Positions 9,535 to 42,734 of a DNA stretch of 42,734 nt are shown here, piece after piece (position 1 is the stretch's first letter; every line of letters starts with the position of its first letter). Position numbers and translations under genes: made by a program. A model generated the notes under the pieces. That model was not told where the DNA came from. It saw nothing but the letters and a program-made list of their open reading frames with translations, and ran no database searches. The stretch is taken from NCBI GenBank assembly GCA_020832415.1, contig JAFIES010000028.1, positions 1-42,734 of the forward strand. Reading direction: 5' to 3'. Source of the stretch: Balneolaceae bacterium. GTDB lineage: Bacteria > Bacteroidota > Rhodothermia > Balneolales > Balneolaceae.

Positions 9535-12315
9535 ATGAAAAGAATAATACATCTTGTTGCTACTGTTCTTCTACTACTATTGCTCAATAATTCTGCTCTA
9601 TCACAGGGGCTAATAGGCCCAACGCTTCAATCAGTGTTACAATCAACAGACGGCCTGGTACAGGTAATTGTAACTTTCGATGGGGATGAAGCTCCGGGGA
9701 ATGCTGAAATCGAATTACTTGAATCGCTTGGTATTTCAACCGGCGTAACGTTGCAATCATTGCCGATGGCTGCTGTTCTCGCTACAAGTAACCAGATCGA
9801 AGCACTTGCAAACCAGCCCGGCGTTCGTTCAGTTTATTTAAATGAACGCCTGGAATATTACAACGATAACGGTACTGCAATCACAGGAGTAAATAAAGTT
9901 CGTACTGAGGGGCAATTCCAAGTAAGAAATGGAGGGATGCCTTTAACCGGAAAAGGTGTTGGTGTTGTGATTAACGACAGTGGAATTGATGCCACACATG
10001 CCGATCACAGATTTGGAGATCATGTTGTACAAAATGTAATGGCATCGTTAAACCTGAACGCAGTTTCGGGCCTGTTACCTGTTACAATTCTGGAAAATCA
10101 GTTAAATACAGACACCAACTCAGGCCACGGAACCCATGTTGCCGGAACAGTTGGGGGAACAGGTGCCCAGTCTAACGGGTTGTATGAGGGTGTAGCACCG
10201 GGTGCCGATCTTATTGGATACGGTTCAGGTGCCGCCCTTTTAGTGCTGGATGGAATTGGGGGTATCGATTATTCAATAACCAACCAGGCCAGGTATGGTA
10301 TAAGGGTAATTAACAATTCATGGGGAGGGTCCGGTGATTTTGATCCGGAACATCCAATTAACCTGGCTACCAAGCGGGCATTTGATAGAAATATAGCTGT
10401 TGTATTTGCTGCAGGTAATTCGGGCCCCGGTACGGATACACACAACCCGTATGCCCAGGCTCCATGGGTTATTTCTGTTGGAGCGGGTACGCACGATGGT
10501 GAACTCGCCGATTTTTCATCAAGGGGTTCTAATAAAACGTTGATTTTTGAGCTGGATGGAGAAACCTTCACCATGATCGATGAACCTACCGTGGTGGCAC
10601 CGGGGGTTGATATTATCTCAACCCGCGCATTATCACCGGTAGGGGTATTGAGCATCGATCAGGATCTGCTAAACCTTGATCCGGGTCATCTGCCATTCTA
10701 TACACACATGATGGGTACCTCTATGGCAGCTCCTCATGTGGCCGGAATTATCGCACTAATGCTGGAAGCAAACCCGGCATTGAATGTATCTGAGATTAAA
10801 GAAATTCTGAGGAAGAGTGCCACAAATATGCAGGGACATGAAGCCTTTGAGGTGGGTGCCGGTTATGTGAATGCGTATGCTGCTGTTCAAATGGCGTATG
10901 ATATGGCTACACCGTTCGGTGCTACTGTAAACACCACTCGAGAGTTCAACAGTACGATCGATTTTAATGCCAAAACGGAGGAATTTTCAATAGATTACGG
11001 GTTGCTTGGCCTCACATCTACCGACTATCAATTCGAGGTTCAGCCCGGAACCAATGTTATTGAAGCAAGAATTCGCGCATTAGGATTATTGGGTGCAGGC
11101 AATCTGCTAAACCTGGTTTTGGAAGATCCAGATGGCAAAATTGCTTCATCCGGTATTCCGGTATTATTTGCACTGGAAATAGACAGGGTGGTTCGAGTGG
11201 CAAGCCCCACTCCTGGCACCTGGACCGTAAGAGTTGAAGGGTTACGGGGTGATGAGATAAATCCGCTGGGAGGAATTGCACTTCCGGAAAGCGTGGATGG
11301 CAGCGTAACCAAATTTATTTCAGCCGGCACTACCGGGTTGAATGATATTGAAGGGCATGAAGCTGAAGATGCGATTATCTTTGCAGTAGGACAGAGGCTT
11401 GTTGACGGTCTGCCGGAGGGAATTTTTGCACCGGAAGATAACCTCACACGAATAGATCTTGCTGACTACCTGGTAATGGGACAGGAAATAAGGCAAAATC
11501 TCCCGCTTAATGGTCCTCAGTTTGGTGATGTTCAGGGTGAACTCCAAACTTTAGCAGCTCATTCTGTTTCAGCAAGGGGAGCAGCACTGAGCGATCGTTT
11601 TCATACGGATGATGGAGTGATGATTCCTGCTTCTTCAAACTCTTTTGAACCTTCCGGAACAGTTAGCAAGGCAGAACTGGCCTATTCGCTGGTTCAGAGT
11701 TTGGGATTACAGGAACAGGCCCGGGAACTGAATAATGAATCCGTAACCGTGGAATATAAAGGAGAAAGAATAAATATTGACGATCAGAATCAGATTCCCT
11801 CTAATTTGCGCGGATACGTTCAGCTCGCTTTGGATTTAAAAATTCTGAATGCTGAATTTAAATTAACTCAGCGCAGATTTGCCCTCTCCCCTACTCTTAC
11901 TGCATATTTCAACCCCTCCCAGGTTATGACAAGGGCTGATTTTGCCGTTGCAGTAACCCGTGCACAGGATGTTGAAATTGCAAGCGGATCGTCAGGCCTT
12001 CTGCCACTTGCCACAGATGGAGGTGAGACCTTTAATAATCCTGATATTCCGGCAACATTTGCACTTGAGCAGAATTATCCAAACCCATTCAATCCAACTA
12101 CTGTTATTTCTTACTCTCTTCCTGAGCAGTCTGAAGTAACAATTAACGTATATAATGTAATGGGACAACGAGTAAGCACACTGGTAAATGAAGTGCAATC
12201 AGCCGGGCAGTACCAGGTAAATTTTGATGCCACCAATCTTGCAAGTGGTGTCTATATTTATCAGCTGCGTGCCGGGGCAAACGTGTTTACAAAGACGATG
12301 AATCTGATTAAATAG
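9535..12315 (+). CDS. Secreted S8 subtilisin-like protease with SLH-like repeats and sorting domain
   Basis: This 926-residue protein has a signal peptide (1-23), an inhibitor-I9-like propeptide (about 40-105), and a peptidase S8 domain with Asp148 (VVINDSGID), His198 (SGHGTHVAGT) and Ser396 (MGTSMAAPHVAG). After a beta-rich domain (about 450-595) come three SLH-like repeats at about 600-650 (LVDGLPEGIFAPEDNLTR), 656-726 and 756-814, then a C-terminal sorting domain at 839-926 with NYPNPFNPTT and ASGVYIYQLRAG. It should be secreted and held at or released from the surface. A GGAGG ribosome binding site ends ten bases before the ATG. An efficient terminator follows. Confidence 0.95.
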   Translation: MKRIIHLVATVLLLLLLNNSALSQGLIGPTLQSVLQSTDGLVQVIVTFDGDEAPGNAEIELLESLGISTGVTLQSLPMAAVLATSNQIEALANQPGVRSVYLNERLEYYNDNGTAITGVNKVRTEGQFQVRNGGMPLTGKGVGVVINDSGIDATHADHRFGDHVVQNVMASLNLNAVSGLLPVTILENQLNTDTNSGHGTHVAGTVGGTGAQSNGLYEGVAPGADLIGYGSGAALLVLDGIGGIDYSITNQARYGIRVINNSWGGSGDFDPEHPINLATKRAFDRNIAVVFAAGNSGPGTDTHNPYAQAPWVISVGAGTHDGELADFSSRGSNKTLIFELDGETFTMIDEPTVVAPGVDIISTRALSPVGVLSIDQDLLNLDPGHLPFYTHMMGTSMAAPHVAGIIALMLEANPALNVSEIKEILRKSATNMQGHEAFEVGAGYVNAYAAVQMAYDMATPFGATVNTTREFNSTIDFNAKTEEFSIDYGLLGLTSTDYQFEVQPGTNVIEARIRALGLLGAGNLLNLVLEDPDGKIASSGIPVLFALEIDRVVRVASPTPGTWTVRVEGLRGDEINPLGGIALPESVDGSVTKFISAGTTGLNDIEGHEAEDAIIFAVGQRLVDGLPEGIFAPEDNLTRIDLADYLVMGQEIRQNLPLNGPQFGDVQGELQTLAAHSVSARGAALSDRFHTDDGVMIPASSNSFEPSGTVSKAELAYSLVQSLGLQEQARELNNESVTVEYKGERINIDDQNQIPSNLRGYVQLALDLKILNAEFKLTQRRFALSPTLTAYFNPSQVMTRADFAVAVTRAQDVEIASGSSGLLPLATDGGETFNNPDIPATFALEQNYPNPFNPTTVISYSLPEQSEVTINVYNVMGQRVSTLVNEVQSAGQYQVNFDATNLASGVYIYQLRAGANVFTKTMNLIK

Positions 12316-13231: not shown

Positions 13232-13969
13232 ATGAAATCACTCTCCTTACTTTTAATACTTTCATTATTTTCTCTCTGTGCCATTGCCCAGGAAAAAGGC
13301 AACACTTATAACAATGACAATTTTCAAATTGAAAATGTTACTGTAAAACACTGGCCGGAGATTGCCGCGACTGTATGGGATATAACCGTACAAGGTAAAG
13401 CCGGCAAAACAACCCCTGCCCCGGCCGGCCAGCTTAATGGTGCTCCTGTTTTGGGGTATGTGTTTCCCACAACGTTAAATCCAACCGATGTAGGTTTTGG
13501 TAAAGTTGAAGGAATCGTAGCTCTGGCCCTCACATCACACCCTGATTTTGACGATACACCGCTTTGGGATGAAAGCGGTGATGGCAATTATAACAATGAC
13601 GGCATTATATGGCACCCTCACTGGGTTATACTGGGCGAGGATACCCGCGTGGAAGGCGGGCTTTCGGTTATTCAGTTCAATCCGGAAGATAACTCTGTTA
13701 TACTGCCGCCAACCAACCCGGGAATGCCTATGTATATGGATTCCCCCGGCTTTCAGGTTATCACAACAGATAACAGAATCAGAGTTGTTGTTCCTGATTT
13801 CAGGATAAGAAATAACCTGGATTTTTCTTACGATGGTGTAACCGTTTATATGCAGGTTTATACAGGTGATGATAACAGCCACAGTAAAGGAGATTTACCT
13901 ATGCTTGGTGTTTACAATATTTATTCTGTTGCAAGCGGTAATTTATCACTGCCATATACAGTACAGTAA
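13232..13969 (+). CDS. Secreted protein of unknown function
   Basis: This 245-residue protein has a clear signal peptide (LSLLLILSLFSLCAIAQ, cleavage near residue 19). The mature part looks beta-rich, with an acidic loop WDESGDGNYNNDG that resembles a calcium-binding loop and GDDNSHSKGDLPML near the end. I do not recognise the family. It is preceded by the TTAGGAnTCCTAA palindrome shared with its neighbours, so it may respond to the same regulator. It is predicted periplasmic or surface-located. Confidence 0.8.
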   Translation: MKSLSLLLILSLFSLCAIAQEKGNTYNNDNFQIENVTVKHWPEIAATVWDITVQGKAGKTTPAPAGQLNGAPVLGYVFPTTLNPTDVGFGKVEGIVALALTSHPDFDDTPLWDESGDGNYNNDGIIWHPHWVILGEDTRVEGGLSVIQFNPEDNSVILPPTNPGMPMYMDSPGFQVITTDNRIRVVVPDFRIRNNLDFSYDGVTVYMQVYTGDDNSHSKGDLPMLGVYNIYSVASGNLSLPYTVQ

Positions 13970-30841: not shown

Positions 30842-32035
30842 TCAGGCAAACTTTCTGATAGCTTCTGCTATTATGTGAAGAGACTCTTTCAGTAGAGTTT
30901 GTTCAATGATGAGTGGTGGTGCAATCCGTATCAGTGAATTCGAGTGGAGGGTCCACCCCAGAATGATTCCTTGTTTGAAACATTCACTCACAACCTCTTG
31001 GGTGAGTTTTGAATCTCTTAACTGAAGCCCCAGCATAGCTCCCCTTCCGCGAACTTCATTAATACCATTACCTTGCAAAATTAGCCGGGCAATCTTTTCG
31101 ATGGTTTTTGCCCGCTCAGAAAAGTTTTCACTCAACAGTACTCGCAAATTTGCATCAGCTGCTGCACAACACACCGGATGGCCGCCAAAAGTGGTTACAT
31201 GGTTCAGTGGCGGATCGTGCTTAAATACTTCAAAAATTTCGGTAGAGGAGACAAATGCACCCATCGGCATGCCTCCACCCATCGCTTTCGCCAGGCAGAG
31301 TATGTCGGGCATTACTCCATAGTGTTGAAATGCGAAGAGTGAGCCTGTTCTGAAAAAACCGGTCTGGATTTCATCAAAAATCAACAGAGTACCTGCCTCA
31401 TTGCACCGCTTCCTGATCTCTTTCAACCATGCGCTATCTGCAGGTATCACTCCGCCTTCCCCCTGAATAGGCTCGAGTATCACAGCGGCAGTTTCACTGT
31501 CGATCGTATCAAGCCTTTCGAATCGGTTGAAGTTTAAAAAGTGAACATTGGGAAGAAGGGGTTCGTAAGGATCTCGATACACATTTCGTCCGGTTACACT
31601 CAGAGATCCATGCGTATCCCCATGATAGCTGTTCTGAAAGGCCACAAACTTACTTCTGCCCGTAAACTTCTTTGCAAGTTTAAGCGCACCTTCAATCGCT
31701 TCGGTTCCGCTGTTCACAAAATAGACCCTATCCAGTGATTCCGGAAGTTGCTTGCATAACCGTTCGGCAAACCGGCTTTGTGGTTCCTGGATAAATTCTC
31801 CGTAAACCATCACATGCAGATGCTTCTCAAGCTGCTGCTGAATGGCTCTTATCACTTCCGGGTGGCGATGTCCAAGGCTGCTGACTGCAATTCCTGAAAT
31901 CAGATCAGTATATCGCTCTCCGTTTTTTGTGTATATAAAACACCCCTCAGCACTTTCAATCTCAATTCCCATCGGTTCATCACTGGTCTGAGCAATGTGG
32001 CGATAAAAGGAGTCGGTATTTAGGCTGTCAGACAA
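30842..32035 (-). CDS. Class III PLP-dependent aminotransferase
   Basis: This 397-residue enzyme carries the class III motifs: NSGTEAIEGALKLAKKFTG (phosphate binding), NSYHGDTHGSLSVTG, ILEPIQGEGGVIP, FDEIQTGFFRTG, and the PLP lysine Lys250 in LCLAKAMGGGMPMG. It resembles acetylornithine/ornithine and other omega-aminotransferases. No arginine-synthesis genes are near, so the substrate is open. It is the last gene of a tight minus-strand run, 16 bp after a thioredoxin-like gene. Confidence 0.9.
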   Translation of the reverse strand: MSDSLNTDSFYRHIAQTSDEPMGIEIESAEGCFIYTKNGERYTDLISGIAVSSLGHRHPEVIRAIQQQLEKHLHVMVYGEFIQEPQSRFAERLCKQLPESLDRVYFVNSGTEAIEGALKLAKKFTGRSKFVAFQNSYHGDTHGSLSVTGRNVYRDPYEPLLPNVHFLNFNRFERLDTIDSETAAVILEPIQGEGGVIPADSAWLKEIRKRCNEAGTLLIFDEIQTGFFRTGSLFAFQHYGVMPDILCLAKAMGGGMPMGAFVSSTEIFEVFKHDPPLNHVTTFGGHPVCCAAADANLRVLLSENFSERAKTIEKIARLILQGNGINEVRGRGAMLGLQLRDSKLTQEVVSECFKQGIILGWTLHSNSLIRIAPPLIIEQTLLKESLHIIAEAIRKFA

Positions 32036-32050
32036 TGGAGCTAATTATTT

Positions 32051-32677
32051 TCAGCTGTTTTCCCACCGGTTCAGAAGTGGTACAAATTCACTCTGAATGG
32101 ATTTTGTGCGATCATCAGCGTACCACTTATGTAATCGCTCCGCTACTTCCCGGTACGATAACTCATCATTTGATCGTAACTCATCAAAAAACAGCTGACC
32201 CTCGTTTGGGCGCGGACCCCAGGTTCCCAAAACATCCAGTGTTCGGGCATCAAGTGCTACTAATTTTGGTATCGACCGGCTCTTGCCATTTGTTAAAAAC
32301 TGATCCATAATCTCCAGATGCTCATCTCTGAGTATATACCTGCTCTGAATTTTCTTGGTTTGTTCAGCCATCATTTGAATAACAGGCAGAGATTGAGCCG
32401 CATCACCGCACCACGCTTCCGTAATAACCAGCCAGACCATCGGCCTGTTAAGATTATCCAGTGAATTCGTTATTTCTTCTGATAGTTTGGTTCTCTTATC
32501 TATACGATTCATCCTGTGCACATTCATTTTTGTATAGTGCAGCATCGATTCGGAGTGATTTTCTCCTGTAGTTTTACCTGATTTAAGCAGTTCGTCAATT
32601 AACTCTCTGTACTCATTGTAGGTATAGGCATTTTCAATAATATCACGAGTGATACATCTTGTTTTTACTTCTGTCAT
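32051..32677 (-). CDS. Thioredoxin-like protein with single-cysteine WCGDA motif
   Basis: This 208-residue protein contains VITEAWCGDAAQSLPVIQMM, the marker of a thioredoxin-fold family (Thioredoxin_9 type) in which the second active-site cysteine is missing. Residues to about 75 are helical. No signal peptide is visible. One Cys suggests glutathionylation, peroxidase or a binding role rather than classic disulfide exchange. It sits between UbiA-like and aminotransferase genes with 16 bp gaps on either side, so co-transcription is likely. Confidence 0.85.
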   Translation of the reverse strand: MTEVKTRCITRDIIENAYTYNEYRELIDELLKSGKTTGENHSESMLHYTKMNVHRMNRIDKRTKLSEEITNSLDNLNRPMVWLVITEAWCGDAAQSLPVIQMMAEQTKKIQSRYILRDEHLEIMDQFLTNGKSRSIPKLVALDARTLDVLGTWGPRPNEGQLFFDELRSNDELSYREVAERLHKWYADDRTKSIQSEFVPLLNRWENS

Positions 32678-32692
32678 AATCTGTTTAAACCT

Positions 32693-33598
32693 TTAAAAAT
32701 ATGTTCTTAAAAACGTATCCCCAATCCATTCATACCGAATGGCATTTGATGCGATTAAAAAAAGTACAAATGCAAGTGAAGCTGCAAATTTGATCTTCAT
32801 TACAATGGGGTACTCCCGGATAACACCTTTCAGTCTTGTCACAAAAGCATTCAATATAAAGAATGATAGTAAAGCAGTTATGAAGAGTGCTATTGCAGGA
32901 ACAGTGTATATTGCGTAAAACCCTAATGTCAGCAAAATCAATCCGGACAGGTAGCTGAAACGAAAAAATAGTTTAACTCCATTGAGCCCGAATCTCATTG
33001 TAAAGGTCTTATCGCCACGTTTGCTGTCTTCTTCAATCTGATATACCTGTGAAGTTGGATAGAGACTCAGTAATATCAATGCGGCACCGGCTGAAACTGC
33101 AATTAAAGCGGGTGTAAACAACCCTCCTGCTGCCCAAAACCCAAGAAGAACCGAGTTTGTGCCCGTACTCAATGCAATTGCAACCATACTTGCCAGCGGG
33201 CGTCCTTTCCAGCGGGCATGTGGCGTTGAATATAGCCAGAAAAGCAACAGGCTTACGCCAAAAACCAAAAAGTATCCGATGTTCACGGTAATGGCCCAAG
33301 CCCACCCCGCAAACATCATGAGCAGTGAAACTTTATGCATCCAGGCAGTCATTTTTGGCGGATGCTTCAGCCCACCGATTGGGCCTTCATCTTTATCCCA
33401 GTAGGAGTTATATGCCGTAGCTCCGCCAAAAAGAAGAATATGCACATTTAGAAATTGCACCCAGAATTGAGTGGTGTTCATCTCATCCGCAATCAAACCA
33501 CCAAGCAGGTACCCGCCTGACAGGATAAAGAACTGATAGTGCAATCTTAAATGGAGCAGAAAATCTTTTATCTCTTTAAGCATATCCGAATACTCCAT
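32693..33598 (-). CDS. UbiA-family prenyltransferase
   Basis: This 301-residue integral membrane protein has about eight hydrophobic helices and the two Asp-rich motifs of UbiA enzymes: NSYWDKDEG (Asn64, Asp68) and, in the second half, a divergent YQIEEDSKRGDKTF. The family transfers prenyl groups from prenyl diphosphates to aromatic or other acceptors, for example quinones or carotenoids. The acceptor is unknown. It starts 64 bp after the DUF6807 gene on the same strand and precedes the thioredoxin-like gene. Confidence 0.87.
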   Translation of the reverse strand: MEYSDMLKEIKDFLLHLRLHYQFFILSGGYLLGGLIADEMNTTQFWVQFLNVHILLFGGATAYNSYWDKDEGPIGGLKHPPKMTAWMHKVSLLMMFAGWAWAITVNIGYFLVFGVSLLLFWLYSTPHARWKGRPLASMVAIALSTGTNSVLLGFWAAGGLFTPALIAVSAGAALILLSLYPTSQVYQIEEDSKRGDKTFTMRFGLNGVKLFFRFSYLSGLILLTLGFYAIYTVPAIALFITALLSFFILNAFVTRLKGVIREYPIVMKIKFAASLAFVLFLIASNAIRYEWIGDTFLRTYF

Positions 33599-33661
33599 AG
33601 CCCACTATACGTGGAATGCAAAATCGATTTAAAACAGAATGCACTATCAGTAATCATTGCA

Positions 33662-34888
33662 TTAATCCACTTCAGTTACAGTTACTCCGGGCGGCCAGGC
33701 ATAATCATTCCAAAGCCGGTTCAGCAGTTCGATATTTGGTTCACCATCATAGGTGATGTAGCGGTAGCGGGCTCTGTAAGGAGTTCCGGGCTGAATGTCC
33801 ATTGCCCCCATCTGCTGTGGTGCAAAATTGAAAAAGGGTTCGTCGGGATGAATTCTCACTGTTTGAGGATATCGAAAATTTGATGGATGCCCTAAAATGG
33901 CAATTCCGGCGAGTTCACCCTCACTGTGGCCGCCAATATGGGTCCACCTGGTGCGGGTTCCGTGGCCATCACGTCCCAAACCTTCAGCTGTTAAAAAAGC
34001 AGCATTATCAGGATCATCCCAATCCGCATGCCCCCGAAACCCAACACCACCATATCGGTATTCAGGCAAATGAAGTGGTTTGTCTGAATTAACGGTTTGG
34101 GTGACTTCCAGATCAAAAAAATGATATCCGGCACCTGATTGATATACCCGAACTACCCACGATTCATTCAAAGCGGTAACCGGCCCATCGGGCGCTGAAA
34201 GATCCAAAAATTTGTGTTTTGATGAGAATCCTGCAAAAACAGCTCCATTCTCACGGTTTAATGATTCTTCTACCACATCAACCCGGCCTGTGTTTTGATG
34301 AATATTCCAGAAGTCAGGTGTACGGCCATCGAATTCTGTATTTGTCCAACCTGACCAGATTCCCGAATGGTGTGGATGAAGATCTGCATTAAGGTGATTT
34401 GTAAGAATTACACCGGATGGTGAATAGACCGGATGGATATAACCGCCTCTGCGATATCGTTCATCGAGCTCTTCGGGCGGATTGTTTTCACCATGAAAAT
34501 AACTCAATACGCTCCCCTCACCGGAATTTATGGTGATGGTATTTTCATCCATCAGGTAGTTAACAGCAAGTGCCGATTGATCCGAAACGAGAAATTCTTT
34601 TGAGAATATGAACTGTTTTGAGTCACCTGCTGAAAGCTCATCAAGAATAAACCAACCACGATTCTGCTGATCGATTTGCAGAACGGATTCTGTTCCGTCA
34701 TCCCCTATCAGTAAGTAGTTGCCTTGTTCAAAGTCATCAGGCAAGTGAAACGACACAACGGTATGAACCCGATCCAACGCTCCCGCTGTTACCTCAATTG
34801 AAAAAGTTTGAGCGATTGATGTGAGTGGAAACAGCATTACTATAAATAGTATTATCAGATTTTTACGGGCAGATTTTTTCATAGTCAC
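33662..34888 (-). CDS. Exported DUF6807 (PmoA-annotated) family protein
   Basis: This 408-residue protein has a signal peptide (IILFIVMLFPLTSIAQ, to about residue 26). The mature part has YRRGGYIHPVYSPSG and DLHPHHSGIWSGW, which mark DUF6807, often labelled 'methane oxygenase PmoA' though unrelated to methane monooxygenase. Such proteins are common beside carbohydrate genes. The start overlaps the uxaC stop (ATGA), which ties it to the uronate operon and suggests an extracytoplasmic role in polysaccharide or uronate use. Catalytic activity is not known to me. Confidence 0.85.
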   Translation of the reverse strand: MTMKKSARKNLIILFIVMLFPLTSIAQTFSIEVTAGALDRVHTVVSFHLPDDFEQGNYLLIGDDGTESVLQIDQQNRGWFILDELSAGDSKQFIFSKEFLVSDQSALAVNYLMDENTITINSGEGSVLSYFHGENNPPEELDERYRRGGYIHPVYSPSGVILTNHLNADLHPHHSGIWSGWTNTEFDGRTPDFWNIHQNTGRVDVVEESLNRENGAVFAGFSSKHKFLDLSAPDGPVTALNESWVVRVYQSGAGYHFFDLEVTQTVNSDKPLHLPEYRYGGVGFRGHADWDDPDNAAFLTAEGLGRDGHGTRTRWTHIGGHSEGELAGIAILGHPSNFRYPQTVRIHPDEPFFNFAPQQMGAMDIQPGTPYRARYRYITYDGEPNIELLNRLWNDYAWPPGVTVTEVD

Positions 34889-36300
34889 TCACCATAGTTA
34901 AAATAGTTTTTCACATTTTGATAACAGATTTTTCTGATTAAAGTATGCAGAAGGTTTTCGTCATCCGGAATCAATCCGGTTTCTACATCCTGACCAATAA
35001 TATTGCACAGGATCCGGCGAAAATAGTCGTGCCTGGAAAATGAGAGGAAACTTCTTGAATCCGTTGTCATACCGATAAACTCACTCAAAATACCCATATT
35101 TGAAAGTGACTCTATCTGTTTTTCAATTCCATCTTTTTGATCCAAAAACCACCACGGCGGTCCGTGTTGAATTTTTCCGGGGACGGAACCATCCTGAAAA
35201 TTTCCGGCCATGGTAGCCATTAGTTCATTATCTCTCGGGTTGATGTTGTAGAGTATCGTTTTTGGGAGATTATTTTCTGAATCGAGCCTGTTCAAGAGTC
35301 TCGCCAGTGGCCGTGCAATCTCCGCATCGCCCATCGAATCGAACCCGGAATCAGGGCCCAGCTTTTTCATCATTCTGGAACTGTTATTTCTGATTGCACC
35401 GATATGCAGCTGAAATACCCACCCTTTTTCGTGATCCATCAGCCCGCAATAATAGAGAAATGCAGATTTATAGCTTCGGATATCTCCTGTTGTCAGGTCT
35501 TTTCCCGTCATAATTTTACTGAATGTCTCTTCCAGCTGCTCATCTGTAAATGGCTCTGAATAGGGCTCTTCAATTCCATGATCTGAAGCCCTGCAACCCA
35601 ATTGATGAAAGTAGTCATGCCGAATCTTTAAAGCCTCAATAAGATCTTTAAATGTGGTGATATCTTTCCCTGACAGAACTGAAAGAAAACGGGTCCATTT
35701 TCTGAAGTTACCACGGTCTTCAATATTCATTCCCATATCCAGCCTGAATGTTGGAACCATCAAAAAATCTGTCTGCTCTTCTTTTCGAAAGTTTGAATGT
35801 TCAGTGAGCGGATTGACAGGGTCGTCGGTTGTGGCCACTACCTGAACATTGTTTCGTTTCAGCAAACTTCTGACTGAAAATTCGGGGCTTTGAAGCATCT
35901 CATTGCACTCATCCCATATTTTTTCTGCCGTTTCACCATTCAGTAACCTGTCGGTAATCCCGAATGGATTTTTTAGCTCCATGTGGGTCCAGTGATAGAG
36001 GGGATTTTTTACTGTTTTTGGGACCACAGCTGCCCATGCGAGAAACTTCTCTTTGTCGGTTGCATCATTGGTAATAAACTTTTCATCCACTCCGCAGGTT
36101 CGCATGGCACGCCATTTGTAATGATCACCGGCCAGCCAGATTTGCGTGATATTTTTGAAGTTTTTGTCAGTAAGTATTTGATTTGGTGACAGATGATTAT
36201 GGTAATCGATGATCGGAAGAGGTGCGGCAACATCATGATAGAGCTTTTTTGCAGTTATGTTCTGAAGTAAAAAGTCATCATGTATAAATCTGTTTGTCAT
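34885..36300 (-). CDS. uxaC: Glucuronate isomerase
   Basis: This 471-residue protein is a full-length uronate isomerase: IIDYHNHLSPNQI with the amidohydrolase-like His pair, GDHYKWRAMRTCGV, TTDDPVNPL, GFDSMGDAEIARPLARLLNR and GMTTDSRSFLSFSRHDYFRR near the end. It converts D-glucuronate to D-fructuronate (or galacturonate to tagaturonate) in the cytoplasm. It lies 26 bp after kdgK and overlaps the DUF6807 gene by four bases, within a minus-strand uronate operon. Confidence 0.97.
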   Translation of the reverse strand: MTNRFIHDDFLLQNITAKKLYHDVAAPLPIIDYHNHLSPNQILTDKNFKNITQIWLAGDHYKWRAMRTCGVDEKFITNDATDKEKFLAWAAVVPKTVKNPLYHWTHMELKNPFGITDRLLNGETAEKIWDECNEMLQSPEFSVRSLLKRNNVQVVATTDDPVNPLTEHSNFRKEEQTDFLMVPTFRLDMGMNIEDRGNFRKWTRFLSVLSGKDITTFKDLIEALKIRHDYFHQLGCRASDHGIEEPYSEPFTDEQLEETFSKIMTGKDLTTGDIRSYKSAFLYYCGLMDHEKGWVFQLHIGAIRNNSSRMMKKLGPDSGFDSMGDAEIARPLARLLNRLDSENNLPKTILYNINPRDNELMATMAGNFQDGSVPGKIQHGPPWWFLDQKDGIEKQIESLSNMGILSEFIGMTTDSRSFLSFSRHDYFRRILCNIIGQDVETGLIPDDENLLHTLIRKICYQNVKNYFNYGE

Positions 36301-36326: not shown

Positions 36327-37361
36327 TCAGCGCTCCACGCGCCCTGAACCGCCACTTTTAAGCAGTTTTTCCACTTCGTCCACGGTTACAAGATTGAAAT
36401 CACCGGGGATGGTCTGCTTCAAACATGAAGCTGCAACTGCAAAATCGAGAGCTTCTTTAGAATTCTCTTTAGTTAGAAGGCCGTAAATCAACCCGGCTGC
36501 AAAAGAATCTCCGCCGCCAACACGATCCACTATTGTAATTTCATATCGATCAGAGCGGTATGGAATTTTGCAATCTTCGCCATCGTGAAGAAGTGCACTC
36601 CAGCCATTTAAACTTGCTGAGAAACTCTCGCGAAGTGTGATGGCTACTGTATCAAATCCGTACTTTTTTTTGAGGGATTTAGCCAGTGTAATGTACGCCT
36701 CTTCATCCAGATGAGCTCCCTCAACATCTGTGGAACCGGCATCAAACCCGAGACTGCGCTGGGCATCCTCTTCATTGGCAATGCAGACATCCACATACTC
36801 CATAAGCGGGTTCATTACAGCCTGTGCTTTTTTTTCCGTCCATAGTTTTGCCCTGAAATTGAGATCACAACTAATTTGTACTCCGGCCTTTTTTGCTGCA
36901 ATGCACGCCTCTTTCAGGGCAATAGTCAGGTTTTTACCCAGTGCAGGAGTAATACCCGTCCAATGAAACCAATCCTTCCCTTCAAAGATTTTTTCCCAGT
37001 TAACCGAAGATGGTTCTAACCGGCTGATTGCTGAGTTTGCACGATCATAGATCACTTTTGATGGCCGCTGACTCGCACCTGTTTCAAGAAAATAGATGCC
37101 CAGCCTCTCTCCTTCCCGAAGTATAAAATCAGTGTTTACACCATATTTCCGCAACGATTGCACAGCAGCCTCCCCGATTTCGTGAGGTGGTATACTACTC
37201 ACAAATGTACTGTCCATGCCAAACTGAGAGAGTGATACAGCTACATTTGCTTCGCCCCCTCCAAATGTAGCATCGAACGTGTCCGTTTGAGTAAACCGCT
37301 TATATCCCGGGGTTGATAGCCGAAGCATTATCTCACCAAATGTTACAATTTGTTTACTCAT
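36327..37361 (-). CDS. kdgK: 2-keto-3-deoxygluconate kinase (PfkB family)
   Basis: This 344-residue sugar kinase has the PfkB N-terminal motif GGGEANVAVSLSQFG and the C-terminal anion-hole motif DRVGGGDSFAAGLIYG with the catalytic base Asp285. It should phosphorylate 2-keto-3-deoxygluconate to the 6-phosphate, the step before the aldolase encoded next to it. Its start overlaps the end of eda by eight bases, so the two are translationally coupled. The substrate is assigned mainly from context. Confidence 0.93.
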   Translation of the reverse strand: MSKQIVTFGEIMLRLSTPGYKRFTQTDTFDATFGGGEANVAVSLSQFGMDSTFVSSIPPHEIGEAAVQSLRKYGVNTDFILREGERLGIYFLETGASQRPSKVIYDRANSAISRLEPSSVNWEKIFEGKDWFHWTGITPALGKNLTIALKEACIAAKKAGVQISCDLNFRAKLWTEKKAQAVMNPLMEYVDVCIANEEDAQRSLGFDAGSTDVEGAHLDEEAYITLAKSLKKKYGFDTVAITLRESFSASLNGWSALLHDGEDCKIPYRSDRYEITIVDRVGGGDSFAAGLIYGLLTKENSKEALDFAVAASCLKQTIPGDFNLVTVDEVEKLLKSGGSGRVER

Positions 37362-38007
37362 AATGATCTTCCCGGTTTTGAAGGTTGTCTACCAAAATAG
37401 CAGCTTTTTTCTGGACTGAAGTATAGTTTTTGTCACGCAGATCTTCCGATGAAACCAGTGCACTTCCAATTCCAACGGCACAAGCTCCGGCTTTGAGCCA
37501 ATCTCTGCCATTGGTTAACGACACACCTCCTGTTGGCATCAGTTGTAAATGAGGGAGTGGTGCCTTAACAGCTTTGAAGAAATCCATCCCCAGAATGTTT
37601 GCCGGAAAGACTTTTACGATATCTGAGCCCAGCTCCCATGCATGTTGAATTTCCGTGGGGGTAAATGCGCCGGCCATTACAACTTTATCCCGGTTTCTTG
37701 ATGCCCGTATCACTTCTTCTTTCACAATCGGGCTAACTACAAACTCTGCTCCGGCATTGATGGCGCGTTCAGCAGTATCTTTGTCAATCACAGAACCAAC
37801 ACCTAACAGCATACCATCCGGCAGATATGATGCGCTATCTTCCAGCAAACCGATCGCACCGGGTACAGTCATCGTAATTTCAGCAACCCTGATTCCACCC
37901 TTGTAAAGCGCCTCAATCAGTGGCTTAAAGCAATCCGGATCATCAAAACGCAATACAGCAACGGCTTTGTGATGCAGAATAAAACGGATAGATTCAGTTC
38001 TGTTCAT
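37354..38007 (-). CDS. eda: KDPG/KHG aldolase
   Basis: This 217-residue protein matches bifunctional 2-keto-3-deoxy-6-phosphogluconate / 4-hydroxy-2-oxoglutarate aldolase: Glu43 in VAEITMT, GVGSVID, and the Schiff-base Lys132 in DIVKVFPAN, then PTGGVSL for phosphate binding. It cleaves KDPG to pyruvate and glyceraldehyde-3-phosphate, the last step of the pathway. It lies 14 bp after the SDR gene and overlaps kdgK, all on the minus strand. Confidence 0.96.
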   Translation of the reverse strand: MNRTESIRFILHHKAVAVLRFDDPDCFKPLIEALYKGGIRVAEITMTVPGAIGLLEDSASYLPDGMLLGVGSVIDKDTAERAINAGAEFVVSPIVKEEVIRASRNRDKVVMAGAFTPTEIQHAWELGSDIVKVFPANILGMDFFKAVKAPLPHLQLMPTGGVSLTNGRDWLKAGACAVGIGSALVSSEDLRDKNYTSVQKKAAILVDNLQNREDHYE

Positions 38008-38021
38008 ATCTACCTACAGTT

Positions 38022-38795
38022 TTAAATGGTCATTGATGTGAAACCGCCATCAACCGGAATAATCGCACCGGTTACAAACGAGGAGGCTTTTTCTGATGCG
38101 AGCCAGATCAAAGCGCCGGCCAGTTCGTCCGGTTCTCCAAACCGATTCATCGGGGTGTGATTGAAAATGGCTTCCGTTCGCTCTTTGGTGAGAATTTTTC
38201 GGTTCTGTTCAGCCGGAAAGAAACCGGGTAAAAGTGCGTTTACCCGAATATTTTTATCAGCCCATTCGCGGGCAAGAAATTTCGTCATATTATTCATGCC
38301 GGCCTTTGAGATGCTGTAGGTGAAAACTTTTGAGAGAGGTATTTCTGATGAAGCTGAAGAAATATTGATGATGCTGCCATGGGTATTGTTGCGCATCATA
38401 ATATCAGCTGCAATTCGGCTTGCAAAAAACACACCTTTCAGATTGATATCCATTATGCGATCCCACTCCTCTTCTGAAATTTCCATCACCGGGGTTGTGG
38501 AGTTAACACCGGGGGCATTTACAAGAATATCGAGCCTGCCCCATGTTTCCTCTATATTCTGAAATGCTTTTTTTAAAGATTCTTCACTTCTTACATCCGC
38601 TTTACAGATGATTGCCTGCCCTCCATTTTTTTCAACTTCAGCTTTTTGGCTTTCGGCCCCTTCTGGATTTCCGCTATAAAAAACAGCCGTCTTCGCCCCG
38701 GCTTTCGCCAATGCCTGAACCATAGCGCCACCAAGAACACCGCTGCCTCCAATTACCGCTGCTGTTTTATCTTTGAGGGAAAATAAGTCGTCCAT
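38022..38795 (-). CDS. uxuB: SDR oxidoreductase, probable D-mannonate oxidoreductase
   Basis: This 257-residue short-chain dehydrogenase has the cofactor motif GGSGVLGGAM, NAPGVN, and the catalytic Tyr160-Lys164 (YSISK). The C-terminal PAEQNRKIL, HTPMNRFGEP and VTGAIIPVDGGFTS resemble SDR-type fructuronate reductases (B. subtilis UxuB/YjmF-like) found in uronate operons. It would reduce fructuronate to mannonate. It is the first gene of the operon (uxuB-eda-kdgK-uxaC-DUF6807). The next step, mannonate dehydratase, is not in the window. Confidence 0.88.
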   Translation of the reverse strand: MDDLFSLKDKTAAVIGGSGVLGGAMVQALAKAGAKTAVFYSGNPEGAESQKAEVEKNGGQAIICKADVRSEESLKKAFQNIEETWGRLDILVNAPGVNSTTPVMEISEEEWDRIMDINLKGVFFASRIAADIMMRNNTHGSIINISSASSEIPLSKVFTYSISKAGMNNMTKFLAREWADKNIRVNALLPGFFPAEQNRKILTKERTEAIFNHTPMNRFGEPDELAGALIWLASEKASSFVTGAIIPVDGGFTSMTI

Positions 38796-38897: not shown

Positions 38898-39311
38898 TTA
38901 CTGAGAAAAGATGTTCTCATTTTTCAGTTTTAAAGTAACGACTACACATATTTTGTTCTCTCTGTTTTTCAAGTAGCATTTCATGATCACTGTTTTTGAT
39001 TCTTCATCAAGTGATAAAATCTTCATTAGAATTTTGTACGGCTGATCTGTAAATACAGGGCGAACAAATAAAGATTCCCTATGAATTACAATTGATCCCG
39101 GACCGGGGAAAACTGTAGTCAGAATATGGGAAAATGCAGTTACTGAAAATGTCCCTTGTACTATCGTTCGACCATATTCTGACTTTGAAGCAAAATCTTT
39201 ATCTATATGGATAGGGTTTGAATCTCCGGTTAATTCTGCAAATTGAACAACCTGTTTCTGTGTAAATGTAATCGAATCTTCAAATACTCTCCCCTTTTCT
39301 GCTTTAATCAT
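38898..39311 (-). CDS. MaoC-like (R)-hydratase / dehydratase
   Basis: This 137-residue hot-dog-fold protein has FAELTGDSNPIHIDKDFA with the catalytic Asp30 and His35 of MaoC/PhaJ hydratases, followed by VQGTFSVTAFSHIL. The family adds or removes water between enoyl and (R)-3-hydroxyacyl thioesters. The ATG at 39311 overlaps the KAS III stop (ATGATTAA), so I prefer it over an in-frame ATG 15 bases upstream. It is the last gene of the acyl cluster, after KAS III. Confidence 0.88.
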   Translation of the reverse strand: MIKAEKGRVFEDSITFTQKQVVQFAELTGDSNPIHIDKDFASKSEYGRTIVQGTFSVTAFSHILTTVFPGPGSIVIHRESLFVRPVFTDQPYKILMKILSLDEESKTVIMKCYLKNRENKICVVVTLKLKNENIFSQ

Positions 39312-40374
39312 AACTCTCAACCTCAATAAGATCAGTTATAAAACAGTTATGTGTGTTGATAATTGCACTTCCCCAGGACAGACCCACACCAAAAGCACTC
39401 AAACAGATAGTAGTTTTGGTGCCAAGTTTACTATTCAGTTCAGAAACAATGGCCAGTGGAATTGATACGGAAGAAGTATTACCAAATTTTTGGAAGTTCT
39501 GAGGCACTTTTGCTTTTTCGAGGTTGAGTTTTTTCAGCAGATAATCGTTTATGATTTTACTTGCCTGATGGAAGATGAAAAAATCAATTTCAGATTCATT
39601 CATATTTGAAAACTTAAATAATCGCCTCAAATCCTTGGGAACTTCCTTCGAAACGAAACTAAAAACACTTTCCCCATCCATATACCCATGTTCTGCATGA
39701 CGAATATTACCATATTCATCCACTACTTTTTCTTCAAACCCTTCGGGGGAACTTGGGTTTCTATATCCTCCTGCATCCATTTTAATTACAGATTCCTTTG
39801 CCCCATCAGAGTTTAGTGAAAAAAAACTCTTGCCATATTTTTCACCTTTTCCAACCAAAACTGCAGCACCGGCATCACCAAAAATAAAGGCTGTTTTTCT
39901 GTCTTTTGGAGAGTAAACTTTCGAGCGGGTTTCACCATTTAAGATAAGTACATTTCTAAAGGCCTGATTTTGAAGAAAAGAGTATGCCACATGTAGTGCG
40001 AAAATAAATGCAGAACAGCCCAATGATATGTCAAAGGCTAAAGTAGATTTCCCAAGTTTCAACCGATCTTGCAATATCACAGAGGTGGCAGGCATTCTGT
40101 AATCAGGCGTTTGAGAAACAAATAAAAGAACATCAATTTCATCGGACTTGATGTTCATTTCTGAGAGAAGCGTACTTGCCGCAGCATAACATAAGTCAGA
40201 AGCGGTTGTATTTTCATCCGTAAATCGCCTTTCAAAAATGCCAATTTTATCAACTACTTTCTTCACTTCAGCTCCTGAAAAAATTTCGGTATAGCCATAA
40301 TTATCGATGACGCGAGAAGGAACTGCTGCTGAAATCCCCCTGATACCTATATTTTCAAAAGCTGATGTTCCCAT
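39304..40374 (-). CDS. Ketoacyl-ACP synthase III-like enzyme
   Basis: This 356-residue thiolase-fold protein has the KAS III triad: Cys120 (ISLGCSAFIFAL), His269 (FIFHQAS) and Asn299 (KFGNTSS), plus a GDAGAAVL strand and a GVGLSWGSA C-terminus. KAS III enzymes condense an acyl-CoA with malonyl-ACP. The length and insertions point to a specialised FabH-like enzyme rather than the housekeeping FabH. A second one lies at 42025. It is eight bases after the SDR gene and overlaps the MaoC gene. Confidence 0.93.
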   Translation of the reverse strand: MGTSAFENIGIRGISAAVPSRVIDNYGYTEIFSGAEVKKVVDKIGIFERRFTDENTTASDLCYAAASTLLSEMNIKSDEIDVLLFVSQTPDYRMPATSVILQDRLKLGKSTLAFDISLGCSAFIFALHVAYSFLQNQAFRNVLILNGETRSKVYSPKDRKTAFIFGDAGAAVLVGKGEKYGKSFFSLNSDGAKESVIKMDAGGYRNPSSPEGFEEKVVDEYGNIRHAEHGYMDGESVFSFVSKEVPKDLRRLFKFSNMNESEIDFFIFHQASKIINDYLLKKLNLEKAKVPQNFQKFGNTSSVSIPLAIVSELNSKLGTKTTICLSAFGVGLSWGSAIINTHNCFITDLIEVESYD

Positions 40375-40381
40375 ATATCAA

Positions 40382-41131
40382 TTATTGAAGAGTGTATCCG
40401 CCATCTATCAGAATATTTGTTCCCGTTACCCAATTGGATGCATCAGATAAAAGATAAATTACAGCGTGGGCAACATCCTCCGGTTTGCCCAAACGCTTTA
40501 AGGGATATCGATCTGTTACTTTCGTTAGCTGTTCTTCTGATAATTTTGTGCTTTCAATAAGCTCTGTCTCAATGATGGCAGGGTTCACACTGTTACAGCG
40601 AATTCCCTTTGATGAGAGATCCAAGGCTGCATTTTTCACAAAAGCATCCAAAGCCCCTTTCGAAGCTGAATAGATACTATTTCCAACCGATACATTAAAA
40701 ACTCCGGTAATGGATGATGTAAACACTACCGATGATGGATTTTTCAGCTTTTTTTCTTTCAGGAGATTTTTCATCAACATAACCGATGCTGTGAAATTGA
40801 TACTCATCACATCATTCAGGCTTTTTTCACTGATAAACTGAATGGGTTTTCGATTGATGATCCCTGCATTGCTAAATACTCCATCCAAAGGTGGCAATGA
40901 TGATATCATACTTAGTAATTCATCAGCTGCTGTTAAATCGGCCGTGAGCTTTTGATGGTTATTTCCGGCTAATTGTGAAAGTGTTTCGTCCAGTTTTTGA
41001 TTGTTCCGCCCGGTTATGATAAGACGTGCACCCATTTTTGAACATTCAATTGCCGTTGTTTTACCAATACCGGAAGAAGCTCCGGTTATAAGTATCGTTT
41101 TCTCACGCAGAGAATATGGATTATAGTTCAT
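40382..41131 (-). CDS. SDR ketoreductase, FabG-like
   Basis: This 249-residue short-chain dehydrogenase has TGASSGIGKTTAIEC, SNAGI, and the catalytic Ser140-Tyr154-Lys158 (YSASK), then an NPAIIETEL loop and a GTNILIDGGYTL end. In its setting, overlapping the ACP gene by 11 bases and preceding KAS III, it probably reduces a 3-ketoacyl-ACP made by the neighbouring synthases. A sugar dehydrogenase role is the alternative. Confidence 0.9.
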   Translation of the reverse strand: MNYNPYSLREKTILITGASSGIGKTTAIECSKMGARLIITGRNNQKLDETLSQLAGNNHQKLTADLTAADELLSMISSLPPLDGVFSNAGIINRKPIQFISEKSLNDVMSINFTASVMLMKNLLKEKKLKNPSSVVFTSSITGVFNVSVGNSIYSASKGALDAFVKNAALDLSSKGIRCNSVNPAIIETELIESTKLSEEQLTKVTDRYPLKRLGKPEDVAHAVIYLLSDASNWVTGTNILIDGGYTLQ

Positions 41132-41360
41132 CAGATTTATGTTTCACAATCAGGTAGAGATCTTCCAGTGTGTTTACATCTCTTATATCATTTCCATCCA
41201 GTTCAATCTCGTATTCCTCATCAAGCATTGCAATAATTTCAAGAGCCAATAACGAATCCCACTCCTCAAGTTTTTTGAATTCCGTCTTTTCGCCTAATTC
41301 ATAGTCATCAGTTACCTCAAAGAGTGATCTGACAGATCGATAAAAATCTTCTTTATTCAT
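41121..41360 (-). CDS. Acyl carrier protein
   Basis: This 79-residue acidic protein has LEEWDSLLALEIIAMLDEEY, with Ser36 as the phosphopantetheine site in the D-S-L motif, and a helical C-terminus. The Met at 41360 gives the usual ACP length; an earlier in-frame Met at 41393 would overlap the acyltransferase gene. It is a stand-alone carrier lying between the acyltransferase and the SDR genes, so it is likely dedicated to this cluster. Confidence 0.92.
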   Translation of the reverse strand: MNKEDFYRSVRSLFEVTDDYELGEKTEFKKLEEWDSLLALEIIAMLDEEYEIELDGNDIRDVNTLEDLYLIVKHKSDEL

Positions 41361-41373
41361 ACCTGCATTTATT

Positions 41374-42018
41374 TTACTTATTAAATTTTCCAATTACTCT
41401 TGCGGGATTTCCAAATACTGTTGTATCTGCTTCTACATCTTTTATTACAACACTTCCGGCGCCCGTTACAGCTCTGCTTCTAATTTTTACACCTGCAAGT
41501 ACTGTTGATCGAACATGTACTTGAGCTTCATCCTCAACTATTGTGTTCCCTCCAATAAAACTAAATGGCCCAATATGGCTCCATTTTCCAATTTTTGCGT
41601 CATGTCCAATTACGGTTTTAACCATAATCGTAGAAAAGTCGCCAATTTCTACTCCAGTTGATATACGGGTGTCAGCCATTATGATAACACCATTGCCAAT
41701 TTTTGAGTTTGGAGTGATATACGCATCTGAACTCACAAGAGACATAAACCGGCCATTTTTGGCTAAAATCTTATTGGAATACTTTTTTTTATCAACAACA
41801 ATCCCCAATCCACATACAAACCGGTCGTTCTCTTCTGGTTGATAATTTTCAACAGAATCAAGAATCGGGGGCAGGCCTTCATGATGGTTTAAACCACCGG
41901 ACTTATCATCAAGAAAACCCTTTACTTTAAATTTTTCTCCAATTCCCACCGAGTTAATACTGGTATAGTATACCTCTCTCCCAAAACCTCTTGCTCCGAT
42001 TATTATCAGGTTTTTCAT
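41374..42018 (-). CDS. NeuD/PglD-like left-handed beta-helix acyltransferase
   Basis: This 214-residue protein has the N-terminal Rossmann-like segment of NeuD/PglD enzymes (LIIIGARGFGREVYYTS) and C-terminal hexapeptide repeats (ITPNSKIGNGVIIMADTRIS, TVIGHDAKIGKWSHIGP) ending in AVTGAGSVVIKDVEAD and VFGNPARVIG. The family O- or N-acylates nucleotide sugars, usually with acetyl-CoA. Its place between KAS III and ACP suggests that here the donor may be acyl-ACP. A cytoplasmic role in surface glycan synthesis is likely. Confidence 0.9.
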   Translation of the reverse strand: MKNLIIIGARGFGREVYYTSINSVGIGEKFKVKGFLDDKSGGLNHHEGLPPILDSVENYQPEENDRFVCGLGIVVDKKKYSNKILAKNGRFMSLVSSDAYITPNSKIGNGVIIMADTRISTGVEIGDFSTIMVKTVIGHDAKIGKWSHIGPFSFIGGNTIVEDEAQVHVRSTVLAGVKIRSRAVTGAGSVVIKDVEADTTVFGNPARVIGKFNK

Positions 42019-42024
42019 AAAACT

Positions 42025-42734
42025 CTACGCTACCTCTATCAATTCAGAACATATAGCATTTTCCAGTTCAAAATGTACACTTCCCCACGATAGGCCTACG
42101 CCAAAACCGCATGCGAGCATTGAAAGCTTTTTTTCAGATGTTTTGTTTATTTCATCTCTTAATTTAACTGCCATAGTGAGAGGAATGGAACCTGATGATG
42201 TATTCCCAAAGTTTTGAAACACGTTTGGAGCCTTATCGTCAACAATGCCCAACTTTTTCTGTATACGATTATTAATCAACAAGTTAGCCTGATGGAAGAC
42301 AAAAAAGTCAATATTCTCAACCTCAAGATCAAAATGGCCCATAAAATATTTTATGCTTTTAGGCACTTTGTTAATTCCAAACGAAAATACAGTCATACCA
42401 TCCATGTATGTATATAACTTCGATCTCTTATTTCCATCCTCAAATTCTACTTCTTCAAGAGATTTGGCCGTAAACGGATTTCTCGTGCCACCATCCTCCA
42501 TAATAATTGCCTTATGATTCTTACCGTCTGTTGCCATATGGCACAAAATATCTGCAGCATCTTCACAATACTCGAGTGCAGTTGCAGAACCTGAATCACC
42601 AAATAACGGATATGTACCCTTATCTTTGGGTGATTTACTGAATGTGGTTGTATCACCTGCAAGAAGAAGTGCTTTTTTAAATTTACTGGCTGATACTAAA
42701 GAAGCTAGTGTTGATAATCCATAAACCCAGCCTG
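42025..42734 (-). CDS. Second ketoacyl-ACP synthase III-like enzyme, N-terminus cut by window edge
   Basis: The minus-strand frame is open to the right edge and encodes GWVYGLSTLASLVSASKFKK at the border, then GDSGSATALEYCEDAADIL, FFVFHQANLLINNR (catalytic His) and NFGNTSSGSIPLTM (catalytic Asn). The catalytic Cys, normally in C-S-G just before WVYGL, should lie immediately beyond the window. It is related to the KAS III at 39304 but clearly a different protein. It ends six bases before the acyltransferase start region, in the same operon. Confidence 0.9.
   Translation of the reverse strand, partial: GWVYGLSTLASLVSASKFKKALLLAGDTTTFSKSPKDKGTYPLFGDSGSATALEYCEDAADILCHMATDGKNHKAIIMEDGGTRNPFTAKSLEEVEFEDGNKRSKLYTYMDGMTVFSFGINKVPKSIKYFMGHFDLEVENIDFFVFHQANLLINNRIQKKLGIVDDKAPNVFQNFGNTSSGSIPLTMAVKLRDEINKTSEKKLSMLACGFGVGLSWGSVHFELENAICSELIEVA

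Follow-up and report, generated by a model that had tools for sequence, protein, structure and literature searches.

A low-GC short-acyl and sugar-acyltransferase gene cassette within a uronate catabolism operon of a Balneolaceae bacterium

Results

Gene content of the cassette

This report concerns a compact gene cassette at the right end of a 42,734-nt contig from a Balneolaceae bacterium (GenBank assembly GCA_020832415.1, contig JAFIES010000028.1). The contig, G000:C108 in our numbering—G000 being the bacterium's own genome—was analyzed whole and is called the window below. Six genes on its minus strand encode two distinct 3-ketoacyl-acyl carrier protein synthases III (KAS III), an acyl carrier protein (ACP), a ketoreductase (KR), a MaoC-type enzyme and a NeuD/PglD-like acyltransferase. 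A first-pass annotation made from the letters alone had named these six, and all are indeed present, with Pfam matches above cut-off and 39% identity between the two KAS III.

In the direction of transcription, the C-terminal 235 residues of the first synthase (KAS_A; 42025..42734, PF08541/PF08545, open at the window end) are followed by HEX (41374..42018), a NeuD/PglB/VioB-type, PglD-like hexapeptide nucleotide-sugar acyltransferase (TIGR03570; PF17836 and PF00132), and by a dedicated ACP (41121..41360; PF00550, above cut-off) with its serine in a DSL motif. Next come the KR (40382..41131; PF13561), a short-chain dehydrogenase/reductase (SDR) with TGASSGIG and YSASK motifs, the second synthase (KAS_B; 39304..40374, PF08541/PF08545, with a Cys-His-Asn triad) and a MaoC-type (R)-hydratase/dehydratase (38898..39326; PF01575, GDSNPIH), whose true start may be 39311 instead of 39326 and whose solved relatives are a 3-hydroxyacyl-thioester dehydratase and (R)-enoyl-CoA hydratases. 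We moved the ACP start from 41393 to 41360, which is probably correct judging from where the ACPs of relatives start, and with it the apparent HEX/ACP overlap disappears. The genes had been described as overlapping or nearly touching, and genuine overlaps do exist between ACP and KR and between KAS_B and MaoC. Catalytic residues are intact throughout: the Cys-His-Asn triad in both KAS III (motifs GCS, HQA and GNTS in each), YxxxK in KR, GDxNPxH in MaoC and DSL in the ACP. The KAS inventory of the genome consists of one KAS III N-terminal half, one C-terminal half, KAS_B and a housekeeping FabH, with no others, and the cassette contains neither a thioesterase nor an alternative acceptor enzyme.

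The N-terminal part of KAS_A lies on contig C34 (positions 1-399) of the same genome. The last 38 bases of the window overlap the start of C34, 37 of 38 matching, and joining them yields a single intact KAS III open reading frame. This join is supported by genome G020, where the identical gene order lies on one contig. We considered and rejected an assembly error that placed the cassette in the uronate operon described below, since each side is contiguous within its own contig and the same arrangement is found in G020 and G017. Recurrence of the identical gene order across several species likewise excludes a chance gene set.

Just upstream of KAS_A, on C34 and so beyond the view of the first-pass annotation, lies a sulfotransferase-family gene (PF13469, with a PRSGST loop). 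Release of the acyl chain by a CurM/olefin-synthase-type sulfotransferase was considered and rejected: the match (E 0.25) covers no more than short segments near the PRSGST loop, and a thioesterase is missing. In G017 this slot (L030, G017:C69, 5297-6298) is occupied instead by a glycosyltransferase/HlpA-like protein that has an EDDT motif and is 24-32% identical in tblastn to annotated glycosyltransferases or HlpA-like proteins. Pfam, which has no model for it, and PDB searches gave nothing useful for this protein, and its single-sequence structure was set aside (predicted local distance difference test score, pLDDT, 38).

A catabolic address

Both flanks of the cassette belong to uronate catabolism. 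Upstream on C34, the gene order is M20 peptidase, the TRAP transporter genes DctP, DctQ and DctM, UxaE and then the sulfotransferase gene. Downstream in the window, again on the minus strand, follow an SDR resembling fructuronate/mannonate oxidoreductases (38022..38795), which borders the right edge of the cassette and which scores best in NCBIfam against D-mannonate oxidoreductase (265.9 bits, slightly below the 281 cut-off), a 2-keto-3-deoxy-6-phosphogluconate (KDPG)/KHG aldolase (37354..38007; PF01081), a pfkB sugar kinase resembling 2-keto-3-deoxygluconate (KDG) kinases (36327..37361; PF00294), the glucuronate isomerase UxaC (34885..36300; PF02614, 662 bits) and a DUF6807 gene. UxaC, UxaE, KDG kinase-like and KDPG aldolase genes are thus together, as in a uronate catabolism operon, with 16 bp between UxaE and the cassette and 102 bp between the cassette and the SDR. 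The surface-sugar neighborhood expected by the first-pass annotation is therefore not there, and an O-antigen or capsule locus immediately to the right of the window is rejected, since UxaE and the TRAP transporter genes occupy that place on C34. Nor are there polyketide, aryl polyene or lipid pathway genes beside the cassette, which the same annotation had said would speak against acyl-sugar synthesis. The cassette and the uronate genes are presumably transcribed together; a promoter and terminator scan gave signals no better than shuffled sequences. A literature search for uronate genes combined with an ACP and a sulfotransferase found no match.

Farther down the same strand, the region downstream of UxaC (30842-34888) holds, with the DUF6807 gene, a UbiA-type prenyltransferase, a thioredoxin-like protein and a class III aminotransferase. 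Elsewhere in the window are a 926-residue subtilase (9535-12315) that combines an S-layer-homology stretch with a Por secretion C-terminal sorting domain, and a 245-residue open reading frame (13232-13969) that matches nothing in Pfam.

The cassette is mobile

In the sister species G002, whose flanks are 94.5% and 92.2% identical to ours in nucleotide sequence, the site is empty: UxaE is followed by about 150 bp and then by the SDR. Homology between the two genomes ends at the UxaE stop and restarts at the SDR start, leaving about 5.35 kb in our genome versus about 150 bp in G002. The uronate site is also empty in G025, G022, G005, G015, G011 and G006. The cassette occupies the UxaE/SDR site in G020, G017 and, judged from two contig ends, G010; it lies beside the TRAP genes of the uronate locus in G012 and on an isolated contig in G008, and its gene order is kept in our genome, G020, G017 and G012. 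Its GC content is 35-38%, versus 42-48% for the flanks, and is lower in other carrier species as well. Finally, the UxaE tree groups G017, G020 and G010 (support 99/100), whereas the cassette tree rejects a G017+G020 clade (p-AU 4e-7), which rules out simple vertical inheritance alongside UxaE. The low GC, the empty site in the sister species and the tree conflict with the flank show that the cassette is a moving unit, probably acquired horizontally; it has a history separate from that of UxaE, yet recurs at the uronate locus. The pattern points to short acyl-ACP/sugar-acyltransferase cassettes that move as units outside glycan loci and can settle repeatedly in one catabolic operon.

HEX belongs to the NeuD family and carries a lineage-specific Arg170

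HEX matches TIGR03570 (NeuD/PglB/VioB) with 167.6 bits, above the curated cut-off of 160.8. It has the features of the family—a PglD_N Rossmann domain, a left-handed β-helix, the catalytic His, the oxyanion Gly and the nucleotide-binding Asp—and the structure predicted for it (mean pLDDT 76.6) is closest in Foldseek to VioB (7txp, TM 0.88). In the acetyltransferase Pcryo_0637, UDP is bound by Asp40/Asp41, with His142 as the base and Gly160 at the oxyanion hole (PMC8040287); these residues match D37/D38, H139 and G157 of HEX by position, and D37, H139 and G157 are invariant across eight relatives. The NPA turn is also retained. The difference lies at positions 168-170, where GxG is replaced by HxR in our HEX and by xxR across its branch. 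Most relatives that lack neighboring KAS genes have Gly at position 170, and every copy of the HEX branch has Arg there, as do KAS-linked copies from Flavobacterium and G416; other acyl-linked groups have His or Asn and one KAS-linked case has Gly. Arg170 thus looks like a lineage signature and, as far as the alignment can tell, suggests a different donor pocket. An alignment around the acyl-CoA site had been proposed as a check on whether HEX has a standard acetyl-CoA pocket, and the result does not point to one; HEX may take its acyl group directly from the ACP. The signature offers a testable handle on acyl-ACP versus acetyl-CoA use by KAS-linked NeuD-family enzymes. In G013 (G013:C136, 2376-3020), a HEX 68% identical to ours and with Arg170 stands alone between SDR and UxaE.

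Close relatives lie in glycan loci

KAS_A groups with KAS from Flavobacterium glycan loci that carry DegT and glycosyltransferase genes (support 100/99), and KAS_B with KAS of polysaccharide loci in the same genus (G023 and G008; support 95/98). Flavobacterium also has two KAS, the second of which falls in a different clade. Elsewhere, homologous KAS/ACP/KR/HEX sets are found in polysaccharide or flagellin-glycan loci, and there is a Parabacteroides distasonis glycan locus in which sugar-nucleotide and glycosyltransferase genes accompany an acetyltransferase, a phosphopantetheine protein, an SDR and a KAS III. The draft genome G008 (9% contamination) holds three similar KAS_B/ACP loci on its contigs C42, C67 and C6 (L068, L069 and L070), two of which also contain KR and NeuD-like genes within polysaccharide clusters.

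Candidate acceptor sugars

Our genome encodes two strong DegT aminotransferases, on contigs C14 and C42. One is LegC, in a legionaminic-type cluster without LegH; the other, beside a WbpD-like hexapeptide protein, is of WbpE type by context. LegB and LegC are predicted to supply a 4-amino nucleotide sugar. LegH adjoins LegC in G023, G014 and G008 (C70), and HEX is the sole NeuD-family protein above cut-off in our genome, with two weaker NeuD-like proteins on C74. The missing LegH and the lone HEX suggest that HEX may N-acylate the product of LegB and LegC. The LegB/LegC cluster itself (L116, G000:C14, 8312-14448) also holds NeuB- and NeuC-type genes, and a 569-residue carbamoyltransferase-like protein fills the place taken by LegH in relatives. 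A genus-wide role of HEX as a LegH substitute was considered and rejected: our genome fits, but the other cassette carriers lack LegC.

Discussion

Our preferred interpretation, which we consider probable without regarding it as secure, is that the cassette is a mobile type II short-acyl unit with its own sugar acyltransferase, resident in a uronate operon, that acylates a nucleotide-activated sugar for a surface glycan. We infer the condensation order, chain length, acceptor and sulfation as follows. One KAS III would carry out a condensation between a short acyl-CoA and malonyl carried by the dedicated ACP, and KR would reduce the product to a 3-hydroxyacyl-ACP; the second KAS III would add another malonyl unit, giving about C6 after two rounds, with dehydration by MaoC as an option. 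HEX would then transfer the completed acyl chain from the ACP to the nucleotide-activated sugar, acylating one of its amino (or hydroxyl) groups, and the sugar would go into a surface glycan encoded at another place in the genome. The acyl hydroxyl or the sugar may in addition be sulfated by the sulfotransferase-family enzyme. The first-pass annotation had left a choice between a KAS heteromer and successive extensions; since the catalytic residues of both synthases are complete, a heteromer in which one subunit is inactive is the less likely of the two.

Of the central proposal of that annotation, a short acyl-ACP transferred to a nucleotide sugar, the dedicated type II module, the TIGR03570 acyltransferase with its VioB-like fold and the homologs in glycan loci stand, so that it is supported in part; the 4-amino nucleotide sugar predicted in our genome is not predicted consistently in related carriers. 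Several observations weigh against our interpretation. LegC is absent from G020, G017, G010, G012 and G013; the only DegT of G020 and G017 is, by context, of WbpE type, and G010 (a 98% complete draft) has no DegT above threshold, so that not every carrier can be expected to offer a 4-amino nucleotide sugar as acceptor. No glycosyltransferase or amino-sugar genes adjoin the cassette, either on C34 or in the neighboring stretch of the window, the draft genome of G013 has HEX but lacks a KAS or ACP cassette, and VioB, whose fold is closest to that of HEX, is annotated as an acetyltransferase.

A more specific form of the same interpretation, possible but rather unlikely, is that our HEX replaces LegH and N-acylates the UDP-4-amino sugar made by LegB and LegC, leading to a nonulosonic acid whose 7-N-acyl group would be unusual. 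The C14 cluster without LegH, the lone HEX above cut-off and the pairing of LegH with LegC in relatives fit this idea, but the carbamoyltransferase-like gene in the LegH slot, the weaker NeuD-like proteins on C74 and the lack of LegC in the carriers G020, G017, G010 and G012 and in the HEX-only G013 do not. Equally tentative is a surface-sugar cassette under uronate control, in which a uronate diet would lead to a two-extension, possibly unsaturated and sulfated acyl group being placed on a sugar by a carrier-dependent NeuD-type enzyme, or in which a uronate-derived sugar would itself be acylated. If this were true, diet would directly alter the cell surface; if co-expression is real, carbon source and surface chemistry are linked.

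That HEX is an ordinary acetyl-CoA N-acetyltransferase, the acyl-ACP made by KAS, KR and MaoC going to some other product, for example one released after sulfation, is in our estimation improbable. Family members of known function do use acetyl-CoA (PMC8040287), the NPA turn is kept and HEX occurs in G013 without KAS or ACP, but every full copy of the cassette has HEX amid the acyl genes, Arg170 replaces the Gly of acetyl-type relatives across the whole branch, no thioesterase or alternative acceptor enzyme is at hand and the match to CurM is not significant.

A service to uronate metabolism, with an acyl group (perhaps sulfated) placed on an operon-supplied uronate, aldonate or nucleoside diphosphate-uronate for storage, detoxification or signaling, must also be judged a poor prospect. 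It would explain the repeated residence at or beside the uronate locus in our genome, G020, G017, G010 and G012 (and of HEX alone in G013), an address that the differing cassette and UxaE histories show was reached or kept more than once, and the inconsistent amino-sugar partner. Yet HEX is of a nucleotide-sugar acyltransferase family, every protein of the module has close relatives in glycan loci, most uronate operons of the genus, including that of the sister G002, lack the cassette, and the recurring address could stem from recombination through conserved flanks. A functionless passenger, as low GC, presence/absence between sister species and the flank tree conflict might suggest, is very improbable, for strongly diverged copies keep all genes, active-site residues and, in our genome, G020, G017 and G012, gene order, so that selection acts.

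Returning to acylation of a surface sugar, the type of chemistry is an already established idea for sugars of flagellin and O-antigen, and the opinion that a carrier-bound donor would be unusual for NeuD-type enzymes was overtaken by published work (PMC3927599, PMC6519341). In Pseudomonas syringae, mass spectrometry of vioB and vioR mutants showed that their flagellin no longer carries N-(3-hydroxy-1-oxobutyl)viosamine, and the viosamine island also carries vioS (KAS III) and acp (PMC3927599). This genetically supported system shares KAS III, ketoreductase, ACP and a 213-residue VioB-type acyltransferase with our cassette, but has a single KAS III, lacks MaoC and sulfotransferase, is not in a catabolic operon and, unlike the uronate-operon cassette, adjoins the aminotransferase vioA, a methyltransferase and the transferase vioT. 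In the O-antigen locus R1 of Flavobacterium psychrophilum, wfpC-wfpG are predicted to build 3,5-dihydroxyhexanoyl on ACP for transfer by the PglD-like WfpG to UDP-Qui2NAc4NH2 (PMC6519341). There the likeness, drawn from the published description and not from sequence, extends to two KAS, ACP, ketoreductase and a PglD-like acyltransferase, whereas the genes lie within an O-antigen locus with pglE/pglF and no MaoC or sulfotransferase is named. A Burkholderia glumae flagellar cluster (pBGF3) shares the acyl parts (KAS III matches in two places, ACP, SDR and acetyltransferase), but adjoins vioA and fliD, has a Rieske protein in place of MaoC and a HEX homolog only 27% identical.

The acetyl-CoA-dependent N-acetyltransferases VioB, PerB, PglD and Pcryo_0637 have in common with HEX the fold and, by alignment, the nucleotide-binding Asp, the catalytic His and the oxyanion Gly, while position 170, also by alignment, is Gly in PerB, Asn in VioB and Arg in HEX. 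With KAS III, KR, ACP and a NeuD/VioB-type acyltransferase together, ours is a cassette of the vioS/R/B/acp and wfpC-G type; unlike the vio and wfp loci, C34 and the flanking part of the window hold no glycosyltransferase or polysaccharide genes, and amino-sugar aminotransferase (DegT) genes of our genome are found only on its contigs C42 and C14. The flanks, in turn, are like those of a known UxaC/UxaE/KDG kinase/KDPG aldolase operon, which the acyl cassette here interrupts between UxaE and SDR. What is new, then, is the composition with MaoC and a sulfotransferase, the uronate address and the lack of a consistent amino-sugar partner.

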